Origin: Methanobacteriota archaeon
GTDB lineage: Archaea > Halobacteriota > Methanosarcinia > Methanosarcinales > Methanosarcinaceae
Assembly: GCA_016841625.1 (NCBI GenBank)
Contig: JAENYU010000031.1
Coordinates: 1 to 33,967, forward strand
DNA: 33,967 nucleotides
Direction: 5' to 3'
Position 1 is the stretch's first letter. Every line of letters starts with the position of its first letter. The translations under genes were made by a program, and so were the position numbers. Positions 28,236 to 31,683 of this stretch are shown one piece after another. The notes beneath the pieces were generated by a model. That model did no database searches, was not told where the DNA came from, and saw only the letters and a program-made list of their open reading frames with translations.

Positions 28236-29894
28236 ATGACGGCAGCAATCGAATGGGCTGAAAAATACCGCCCCCGGACCCTCGCGGATGTCGTGGGGAA
28301 CAAGAAGGCAGTGCACGATTTCCGGAGCTGGGCCGAGGAATGGCTCGTGGGCACCCCTGAGAAGAGGGCTGTGATCCTGCACGGGTCTGCAGGGATAGGG
28401 AAGACTTCCAGTGCCCATGCCCTTGCCCGGGACTTTGGCTGGGAGGCGATCGAGCTTAATGCGAGTGACCAGAGGACGGCAGGGGTAATCGAGAAGGTTG
28501 CGGGTTCTGCGGCTTCCATGAACTCCCTTTACGGGGGAAAGCGCCTGATCATCCTGGACGAGGCGGACAATATTCACGGGAGCTCGGACCGCGGCGGGAT
28601 GCGTGCGGTCTCGGGGATAATTAAGAATACTCAGCAGCCGATTGTGCTTATTGCAAATGACCTCTACGGGCTAACCCCTACGATCCGGAACCTCTGCCTG
28701 GAAATTAAGTTCCAGGGCGTGCAGAGCCGGTCCATTGTCCCTGCCCTGAGGAGGGTCTGCGACGGGGAGGGGCTCCAGTGCAGCCCTGAGGCTGTCCTGA
28801 AGATTGCAGAAAATGCCGGGGGAGACCTGCGAAGTGCCGTAAACGACCTCCAGGCCGCGGCCAGCGGCAGGAAGCTTATAGAAGCTGAGGACATCAGCAC
28901 AGGCGAGAGGGACGTAAAGGAAAATATTTTTAAGGCGATGCAGAAGATCTTCAAGAGCACGGACCCGAAAAAAGCCCTTGAAGCCACATACGGGCTTGAC
29001 GAGAGCCCCGAGGACCTTGTGCACTGGATCGATGAGAACCTGCCTGTCCAGTACGCGGGAGAAGGTGGGGACCTTGAAGATATCAGGACCGGTTACAGCT
29101 ACCTCTCAAAAGCCGACCTCTACCTGGGGCGCGTAAAGAAACGCCAGAACTACCGGATGTGGAGATATGCAAGCACGCTCATGGTCTGCGGGACTTCCCT
29201 TGCAAAGTCGAAGCCTTACAGGGGCTTTATCAAATACCAGCAGCCTTCGGTCTGGAGGAGGCTCGGGCAGACCAGGGCGACCAGGAATATGCGGGACAAT
29301 ATCGCTTCGAAGATAGGAGATCACTGCCTGGAGTCCATGCACTATTCCAGGAGCAACCTGCTCGGGCTCTATTCCCGGATGGCAAACGACGAAGCTTATG
29401 CCGTGGACGTGACTGCCGGGCTCGGCCTTGAACTTGAAGAACTAATGTATCTCACCGGAAGCAAAAAAGCAAGCAAGAAGCTCCAGAAAATTTACGATGA
29501 CGCCCGGGAACTGCAGACAGCAACCGGGGCCCTTGAAGAGCCTGAGTTCTTCAAACCCCCCGTCGCGGGGGGAAATAAGCAAAAAACCCCTGACTTCTTT
29601 GCCGAAGCCGAACTATCCGGAAAAGAGGGGGTTTCTTCCGAAACAATTGAAACAAAGGCACCTGTTAGTTCTGATCGCAAACAAAGAACTCTAAATTTCG
29701 GGCTTGATAGTATTCAGGACAGTGTTCAGGACGGTGAAGAGAAACCCTCTAAAATAGAATCAGAAGACCCAGCAGAAGAAGCTCAGGAAGAAAAGCTTGC
29801 TTTAGATCCTGTCTCTGCGGACGGAGTAGCCAAACCTCGCGGGGAACCTAAAAAACCTGATAAAAAAACTCAGAAAACACTTTTTGACTTCTAA
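28236..29894 (+). CDS. rfcL: replication factor C large subunit
   Basis: RfcL with RfcS forms the clamp loader that opens and loads PCNA at primer ends. The 552-residue protein has an N-terminal AAA+ domain: [16 protein letters not shown] (7-22), Walker [12 protein letters not shown] (49-59), Walker B LIILDEAD (104-111) and [13 protein letters not shown] collar domain (~230-430) follows. The tail is acidic and disordered and ends in [16 protein letters not shown] (546-552) is a PIP box for [12 protein letters not shown] (483-490) looks like a weaker second one. A short leader carries the AACCTTATA/TATAAGGTT inverted repeat. The G-rich inverted-repeat element 1 begins 12 bp after the stop. Confidence 0.96.
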
Positions 29895-29906
29895 GTTGTT
29901 TTTTTA

Positions 29907-29987
29907 AGTGAGCGGATTTTTGGGGGTTGACTTAAAAGAAGAAGTTTGGGGAATTTTTGGGGAGTGGGGGTATGTTATCCGCTCACT
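29907..29987. repeat. G-run inverted-repeat element 1
   Basis: Perfect 11-bp arms AGTGAGCGGAT (29907-29917) and ATCCGCTCACT (29977-29987) enclose a 59-bp loop with four runs of at least four G on the plus strand. It is 81 bp in total and 12 bp after the rfcL stop, so it could also end that transcript. It belongs to the same family as the elements at 30370 and 30968. Confidence 0.8.
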
Positions 29988-30369
29988 AATATAATATATC
30001 GAAGTTGACTTATAAATACTTTTTTTATGTACTGTAAAATATTTTTGGTTATAGAGATAATTGATTGTATATTTAATTAACTTATATTTTGCAGGAGTTG
30101 TTTTGAAATCCAGTGAAAATAAGCGGAAATTACTGGGAGGAAAGGACTATGAAGATATTTTCCTGCTCTTGTGCGGGCAAGATCGGTAAGAGTACGGAGT
30201 TTTAAGGGTGAATATCCTCGAGGCCGGTTTTTACGAATGGCTTTCGAAGAATCGTAGGGCTTTAGATATTTGCGAAGGATGATTTCGAGGAGTGGTCGAG
30301 AAAAAAATTCGGAAATCGAAAATTATTGCGGAGAATGGATCTGAAGAGGATAAATGAAGAGAAATGAAA
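29988..30369. other. gap with possible decayed gene fragments
   Basis: There is no intact gene. Short sensible peptides can be read on the plus strand. One of about 18 codons lies after GGGAGG at 30149; others are near 30209-30285 and 30280-30360 (for example FEEWSRKKFGNRK). They do not join into one frame. A decayed gene is possible. Confidence 0.3.
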
Positions 30370-30488
30370 GGGATTAGTGAGCGGGCTTGGAGAGTATTTT
30401 GGGGGAATAGTTGGGGAATAGTTGGGGAATAGTTGGGGGATATGAGTTGGGGGTTATACTGTAAAAACAGACCCGCTCACTAAATCCC
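30370..30488. repeat. G-run inverted-repeat element 2
   Basis: Arms GGGATTAGTGAGCGGG (30370-30385) and CCCGCTCACTAAATCCC (30472-30488) pair over 16 bp with a single bulge. The loop contains five runs of at least four G, spaced by an 11-bp AATAGTTGGGG tandem unit. A small CTGT-AAAA-ACAG hairpin lies next to the right arm. Confidence 0.82.
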
Positions 30489-30692
30489 TCATAATATAAC
30501 ATTGTATATATAGTTTTCCCCATCATACACTTAAATTTATAATAACTGGTGATCTATCGAAAATTAATGAACTTCCGGTTTCCAGAGCTTTTTTTAACGG
30601 GGTTCCATACGAAATTTCCTGTTAATGGAACTGGCAGTCATAAATTAATATAAATATTTTTCTATATTTTTTCCACTTTTCAGGAGACAAAC

Positions 30693-30791
30693 ATGCACAC
30701 GTTCTTTTTGAAATGTGCTCCTGTGCCCATTTTGATTCGTCAAGAGCAAAAAACACGCCAGATGTCTGTAAAAGGATGTAAACGTATGTAG
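30693..30791 (+). CDS. possible 32-codon small protein ending in TAG
   Basis: ATG at 30693 follows CAGGAG by 7 nt. A TATA-like TTAATATAAATATT (about 30642-30655) would start transcription near 30672. The frame encodes 32 residues (MHTFFLKCAPVPILIR..., basic at the end) and stops at TAG 30789-30791. After that it continues 11 codons (TAC GCC GGG...) to TGA. In Methanosarcina TAG can be read as pyrrolysine, so a 44-residue form is conceivable. Good start signals make translation plausible, but there is no recognised family. Confidence 0.35.
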   Translation: MHTFFLKCAPVPILIRQEQKTRQMSVKGCKRM

Positions 30792-30967
30792 TACGCCGGG
30801 AATGTTTACAGCTACATGCAAGGATGAATAATAAGGATGAGTGGCAAGGAAGCAAAATGATGTGTGAAGATCGCAAAACGGTATGTACCCGATAGTACGT
30901 GTACAAAATGAGTTCTGGTAAAAAGTATGTTAGCAAAATAGGTTTTTTTCTGTAATATAATAATCAG

Positions 30968-31072
30968 TGTGAGCGGGTTGGGGAGTATGAATTGGGGAGT
31001 ATGAATTGGGGAGTATGAATTGGGGTTGTTGGGGGGTCGGGGTTATCTTACAAAATTAGAGACCCGCTCACA
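30968..31072. repeat. G-run inverted-repeat element 3
   Basis: Perfect 11-bp arms TGTGAGCGGGT (30968-30978) and ACCCGCTCACA (31062-31072) enclose six runs of at least four G. The first four lie in a 14-bp TTGGGGAGTATGAA tandem array, and these are followed by a GGGGGG and a GGGG run. The right side of the loop (GGGGTTATCTTACAAAA) resembles that of element 2. Confidence 0.82.
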
Positions 31073-31295
31073 ATTACCTTTCACTTTTGTCTGATATAAA
31101 TATATTATGCTTTGAAACTGGGATTAATTGACATGAAGTCAATTTCTGCTGGAATAAATAGACTTTTCTGATTCTAATGTGCTGAAGTTTTTTCAAATCT
31201 TTTTCAGAACTTTCGGTTTAAACTTTTTAACCTGCTGAAAGCGAGAAGGGAATCTGTTTGAATTTATTTTTCCGTGAATCTGCGGCTATCAAAAC

Positions 31296-31306
31296 ACATA
31301 TATATA
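31296..31306 (+). promoter_or_regulatory. TATA box of tRNA-Val
   Basis: ACATATATATAAC lies about 75 bp before the mature tRNA. A transcription start near 31327 is expected, giving a 5' leader of ~45 nt. Confidence 0.45.
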
Positions 31307-31370
31307 ACTTATGACATTTTGGAATTGCATTTGAGGAGCAATATTCCGAAAATGGTTCATACGGCAGGAT

Positions 31371-31444
31371 GGGCTCGTGGTCTAGACGGTTATGACATCG
31401 CCTTTACACGGCGGGGATCCTGAGTTCGAATCTCAGCGGGCCCA
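31371..31444 (+). tRNA. tRNA-Val (anticodon TAC)
   Basis: This is a 74-nt cloverleaf. Acceptor GGGCTCG pairs with CGGGCCC, with discriminator A at 31444. The D-arm contains GGTCTAGACGGTTATGAC. Anticodon stem TCGCC/GGCGG holds loop TTTACAC, with TAC at positions 34-36 reading GUA and probably other Val codons. T-arm CTGAG-TTCGAAT-CTCAG is perfect. CCA is not encoded. There is no intron. Confidence 0.97.
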
Positions 31445-31647
31445 TAACCCTTTTAAATCCTTTTTTCCTGATTTAGAGGTTTGATACACCATTTTTTTAA
31501 GTTTTTCAATTCTTAATTAAAGGTCAGATTTGCCGGTGAGTTGTACAACTTTTTCTTCTTGCACATCTATCAGTTTTATTGTGTATACCAGTTTCACTCC
31601 TAAAATAAATCCTTGTTGAAGATTCAATGGAATTATTTGAGGACAGG

Positions 31648-31683
31648 GAATGAATGAATGAATGAATGAATGAATGAATGAAT
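31648..31683. repeat. GAAT microsatellite, nine units
   Basis: Nine perfect GAAT units are present. The minus strand could be read as an IHSF repeat peptide in a 78-codon frame, but the frame has no SD or family resemblance. Confidence 0.92.

Follow-up and report, generated by a model that had tools for sequence, protein, structure and literature searches.

The interval between rfcL (28236–29894, plus strand) and tRNA-Val(TAC) (31370–31445, plus strand) raised the question of what three closely spaced inverted repeats enclosing runs of G might be. In the whole stretch of DNA analyzed (33,967 nucleotides, here the 34-kb window) exactly three inverted repeats enclosing at least four runs of four or more G were found: element 1 (E1, 29907–29987, 11-bp arms, four runs), element 2 (E2, 30374–30483, 12-bp perfect arms, five runs) and element 3 (E3, 30968–31072, 11-bp arms, six runs). 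Dinucleotide-preserving shuffles of the interval 29895–31369 returned at least one such element in only 3 of 2000 cases, confirming that the elements described by a first-pass annotation of the window are real. Their four, five and six G-runs, their common orientation and their position between rfcL and tRNA-Val were also as it had reported, and so were the tandem units within the loops, with periods of 11 (4.6 copies) and 14 (3.4 copies). The arm length of 11 bp was correct for E1 and E3, while for the second element, given as 119 bp with 16-bp arms, the perfect repeat is 12 bp and the 16-bp version requires a mismatch or a bulge. In the intergenic DNA beyond tRNA-Val, the tetranucleotide GAAT is repeated perfectly nine times (31648–31683).

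As judged from the signals it carries, the functional strand of the elements is the minus strand, i.e. the C-rich one. The predicted small RNA gene corresponding to E1 spans 29908–29986 on this strand, with a C-rich loop, a 5' arm running from 29986 downwards, a 3' arm ending at 29908 and a predicted start at about 29986; its putative TATA box, TTTATAAG, is located at 30009–30016 on the minus strand, its first base 30 nt before the 5' arm. The E2 copy (30377–30480, minus strand, predicted start at about 30480) has a loop containing (CCCCAACUAUU)n repeats and a candidate TATA box, TATATATA, 32 nt upstream (30505–30512, minus strand). The loop of the E3 copy (30969–31071, minus strand, predicted start at about 31071) contains (CCCCAAUUCAUACU)n repeats, and the box TTTATATC occurs 29 nt upstream (30 nt or so being typical of the set) at 31093–31100 on the same strand. 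All three boxes were assigned from the sequence and from the family-wide test described below. The first-pass annotation had overlooked these minus-strand boxes.

A pattern search across this genome detected a fourth close copy on another contig (E4, C17:18359–18431), and a fifth with a different stem was found at C58:18076–18141 (E5); neither had been noticed in the first reading of the DNA. E1–E4 are referred to below as the four close copies. On the C-rich strand the E4 RNA is closely followed by a near-perfect palindrome (AAAGTTTAACTTTTGTTAAACTTT; L001, about 1465–1492). These four copies recur in all three other genomes of the genus, where three of them stand side by side and adjoin tRNA-Val. 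Among the matches listed in a wider scan, mostly unrelated high-GC sequences, at least two named records, Methanosarcina sp. UBA402 and Methanosarcina sp. MSH10X1, contain the element. A search of this genome with the conserved core only (see below) returned two further RNA candidates on contig C3, which combine an unchanged core with a different stem (GGGCAUCCGG/CCGGGUGCCC) and have a TATA-like box at roughly the expected distance. They fall below the threshold used for the family with covariance model R2 (best E 0.0098) and are probably divergent relatives. Downstream of the two C3 loci (C3:61578 and C3:75270; L215 and L216) there are tandem CCCTCCTCCTCATATC units resembling an anti-Shine-Dalgarno sequence.

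The distribution of the family was defined with two covariance models, R1 built from 18 sequences and R2 from 63. R1 matched 91 of 101 genomes of the Methanosarcinaceae, in 12 of 14 genera, and R2 matched 148 of 150 genomes of the Methanosarcinales, in five families, with 1–15 copies each; a deeper search raised the maximum to 17 copies per genome. In a sample of the phylum 40 of 197 genomes matched, comprising 27 of the order, 8 of family f6, 4 of family f14 and a single weak match lacking a TATA box, and the 157 genomes without a match served as a specificity control. From their genomes (1,879,471 bp for f6; 3,179,916 and 2,957,635 bp for f14) we take f6 and f14 to be the Methanotrichaceae and the Methanocellaceae, respectively. 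Within the Methanosarcinaceae the family was missing from the small genomes of genera g10 and g11 apart from one match at E 0.012, thus indicating that it can be lost. The genomes with the RNA missing or with one marginal match are G012, G025, G013, G026, G035, G042, G049 and G056. The two genomes G147 and G158 (family f5, genus g19) show an expansion to 11–17 RNA copies each.

The promoter had been left out of the covariance search models and was evaluated on 120 non-identical family members. A TATA-like hexamer starting at −35 to −25 occurred in 98/120 members on the C-rich strand versus 6/120 on the G-rich strand and in 7–22 of the 120 for other upstream stretches of equal length, the opposite strand and the neighbouring stretches being the fair controls for a pattern composed after examples had been seen. 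On the C-rich strand, all copies within the genus are preceded by a TATA box, its start lying about 29–32 nt before GTGAGCGG. This distance puts the transcription start at or near the first stem base, and we infer that the elements are transcribed from the C-rich strand from that position; a TATA box about 25–35 nt before the start is what an independently transcribed archaeal small RNA gene should have. Immediately beyond the stem, the next 10 nt contain almost no G and much T and C, a composition that would be compatible with an archaeal 3' end.

The RNA architecture consists of a 9–11-bp terminal stem closing a large single-stranded loop. Folding of the C-rich strand returned this terminal stem and open loop with z values of −4.5 to −7.1 in the members tried, whereas the G-rich strand was closer to its shuffles in all three window copies (z −1.7 to −4.3). 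Among 103 distinct aligned members 96.1% of the stem cells were paired, versus 30–49% in slid stem registers, figures that are biased in favour of the stem by an alignment fitted to it. All 10 stem pairs covary with double-sided changes, 81 in total, and none of 500 shuffles reached the observed values of pairing and covariation. The exchanges are also visible by eye, GUGAGCGGGU being replaced by UUGCGCGGGU, GCGAACGGGU or GAACGGGCGAG, each with the matching complement. The family thus has the covarying structure of an independently transcribed archaeal small RNA gene.

The loop is arranged in the 5' to 3' direction as a U-run followed by C-runs. A run of at least four U was present in 113/120 members, with a median start at 15 nt, and the last C-run ended 2 nt before the 9-nt 3' arm in 70/120. 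In most genera the loop terminates directly before the 3' arm with the core UAACCCCCACUCCCCA or a close variant; this single-stranded 16-nt core is near-invariant, differing little among most paralogues across a class. Repeats extend the loop in Methanosarcina and its close genera, and their number varies between sister species while the C-runs stay, as in the E3 loop, which has three 14-nt units in this genome and one in G001. The paralogue-specific spacers of the loop are strongly conserved as well. E4 is 97.5% identical between this genome and G085 (5,751,492 bp, presumably M. acetivorans C2A), with 150-bp flanks at 56% and 32% identity, the baseline for shuffled flanks being about 40%. On the 5,751,492-bp chromosome, loci of the family include about 2,226,936–2,227,708 and 4,771,639–4,771,717. 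The most divergent window copy is E1, which showed 58% identity between G001 and G085 and a weak score for its G085 counterpart. A small protein-coding RNA was considered and rejected, since the 11- and 14-nt units, the varying lengths and, by eye, stops soon after GTG or ATG in several copies make a coding function unlikely.

Taken as a whole, the elements are very probably copies of a family of small non-coding RNA genes of about 50–110 nt, each with its own TATA promoter. The first-pass annotation had listed structured RNAs among the possible roles, which agrees with this evidence, although the strand is the C-rich minus and not the G-rich plus. Comparison of the window region and nine distant loci with Rfam 15 (4227 families) gave no match but tRNA and one sub-threshold tRNA-like hit. 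A search of article text in the open literature for the motif and for such RNAs found nothing relevant, and in the passages found a 2010 survey including archaea names flpD as the sole euryarchaeal motif. Within Rfam 15 and the literature searched the family as such is therefore uncatalogued; the numbered sRNA candidates of M. mazei or M. psychrophilus, which run to hundreds, may well include individual copies.

Several known RNAs resemble the family in part. CcsR/cuckoo RNAs of alphaproteobacteria (CCUCCUCCC motif), RsaE and LhrC are bacterial C-rich-loop sRNAs, which are likewise small, often multi-copy and provided with conserved C-rich single-stranded motifs; the present family differs in being archaeal, in its motif UAACCCCCACUCCCCA, in its loop of about 30–85 nt closed by a single terminal stem and in the lack of support for generic anti-Shine-Dalgarno matching. 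The M. mazei sRNA41, sRNA154 and sRNA162 are intergenic Methanosarcina small RNAs with single-stranded regions that act at ribosome binding sites (PMC5867862, PMC3510493). sRNA162, with 191 nt and three stem-loops, was found only in close relatives, whereas the present family is class-wide and multi-copy, with 50–110 nt, one terminal stem and a C-rich loop; for sRNA41 the comparison is by description. Nine highly conserved, cold-induced intergenic sRNAs of Methanolobus psychrophilus, a methanogen of the same family, were also compared by description only (PMC5378194).

We then considered how these RNAs might work. Each would be transcribed from its own TATA promoter from the first stem base, and the terminal stem would hold open the large single-stranded loop with its U-run and subsequent C-runs, the C-rich loop presumably being the working part. 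In trans, the loop would offer a conserved single-strand RNA-binding protein a binding platform or a decoy, a plausible but still tentative assignment, and the U-run may also recruit an archaeal Sm-like protein. Because the core is nearly constant throughout a class and the stem can vary freely, one conserved partner reading the single strand, most simply a protein, is favoured, and a protein platform appears more likely than generic anti-Shine-Dalgarno pairing. An attempt to single out the Sm-like protein by its phylogenetic profile failed, as this protein is also present in genera without the RNA. CsrB and RsmZ, protein-titrating RNAs with GGA loops, offer a likeness in their repeated binding motif and variable copy number; the family described here has C-runs rather than GGA loops and a proposed protein partner.

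The same genes could have a different partner, the C-rich loop pairing as an antisense RNA with G-rich stretches of specific mRNAs, e.g. at ribosome binding sites. sRNA41, sRNA154 and sRNA162 of M. mazei provide the precedent, masking of ribosome binding sites being the established mode for Methanosarcina small RNAs (PMC5867862, PMC3510493). Each paralogue has its own conserved loop spacers, which are no harder to reconcile with sequence-specific pairing than with a generic site for a protein, and some strong single complementarities occur in the sampled genome. The core and the E1–E5 loops, however, did not clearly bind 727 predicted start regions, relative to gene interiors, better than their own permutations; in this test on 1.07 Mb of the genome the starts were called crudely and a modest effect could escape. 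Permutations were at least as good in 16/20 cases for the core, 20/20 for E1, 14/20 for E2, 9/20 for E3, 2/20 for E4, the loop closest to beating its permutations, and 10/20 for E5, while an anti-Shine-Dalgarno control was enriched at starts (difference of −0.79 kcal/mol vs −0.36 for permutations). Generic anti-Shine-Dalgarno pairing was thus unsupported against permuted motifs on 221 and then on 727 start regions, and the 1.07 Mb sampled showed no generic complementarity of the sRNA41/sRNA154 type above permuted motifs. Exact or one-mismatch complements of the core in eight genomes were mostly the small-RNA genes themselves, and near-invariance over a class is unusual for antisense seeds. Antisense action is the chief rival, rated as possible but somewhat less likely than the protein reading, and specific mRNA targets are possible.

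Two specific candidates of this kind were rejected. For a dedicated mRNA with a near-perfect core complement, pattern searches of nine genomes yielded mostly small-RNA genes and scattered matches. Acetyl-CoA decarbonylase/synthase (ACDS), the sRNA41 target, was discarded as a shared target since this genome carries the RNAs yet has no CdhD (PF03599) match above the cut-off (none in G000 vs four in G085). The enzyme may be missing from the G000 lineage, or from the assembly.

The first-pass annotation had emphasised a G-quadruplex. In this rival reading plus-strand DNA or RNA would form the quadruplex, clamped by the inverted repeat, and the four to six runs of at least four G in the three window copies speak for it. 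A classical four-run quadruplex is possible in just 33/120 members (24/120 within the loop), many members having only two or three G-runs, so that the capacity is not conserved; moreover the G-rich strand has no promoter (6/120) and its fold is less distinct from shuffles, making this explanation very unlikely for the family.

The remaining readings were weighed against the genomic loci. By tblastn of the neighbours, rfcL proved to be a conserved neighbour of the small-RNA locus, with copies adjoining it across many genera of the Methanosarcinaceae as well as in one genome (L281) from a different family of the order; tRNA-Val is a conserved neighbour in Methanosarcina and close relatives. Other copies adjoin hppA in several genera, including loci outside Methanosarcina (L176, L301 and L183), and in three families copies stand next to an FAD oxidoreductase gene or to rtcA, which neighbours it. 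On this evidence the copies are ancient genes that have been passed on vertically at a small number of constant positions. E1 begins 13 bp past the rfcL stop codon, as a terminator or 3'-end stabiliser of the rfcL mRNA might, but neither E2 and E3 nor the copies at other loci follow a gene end in this way, those near hppA or the FAD oxidoreductase/rtcA pair have various orientations, and the covarying stem and core are identical in kind at all loci; such a role is highly improbable. The first-pass annotation had taken conservation only beside rfcL as the mark of a local function and many dispersed copies as that of a mobile family; in the other genomes the copies occupy orthologous loci beside rfcL and elsewhere. 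These loci disfavour a role tied to rfcL alone and suggest that the small RNAs act in trans. MITE-like mobile elements with 11-bp terminal repeats, to which several copies per genome, palindromic ends and the 11–17 copies in some genomes of one genus could point, are most unlikely, as the same intergenic loci, rather than dispersed non-orthologous sites, are occupied in different genera and families (a strong argument against mobility), most genomes hold few copies, conserved promoters lie outside the repeats and the loop is under purifying selection.

The elements between rfcL and tRNA-Val, read as small-RNA genes whose loop may bind a protein, probably have a regulatory function. Their absence from Rfam implies that the family is missing from automatic annotation. 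Since genetic systems are available for M. acetivorans and M. mazei, the function is directly testable. Speculatively, and with low confidence, a near-universal multi-copy RNA of methane-cycling archaea might sequester or guide a conserved C-rich single-strand RNA-binding protein, as a counterpart of CsrB-like or 6S-like global regulators that was lost in small-genome genera. Many of the archaeal small RNAs known to date are limited to a single genus. The near-universality of this family in the order and its reach into neighbouring groups, together with the near-invariant core, the ancient loci and the multiple copies, point to a fundamental role in methanogens and in archaea that oxidise methane anaerobically.
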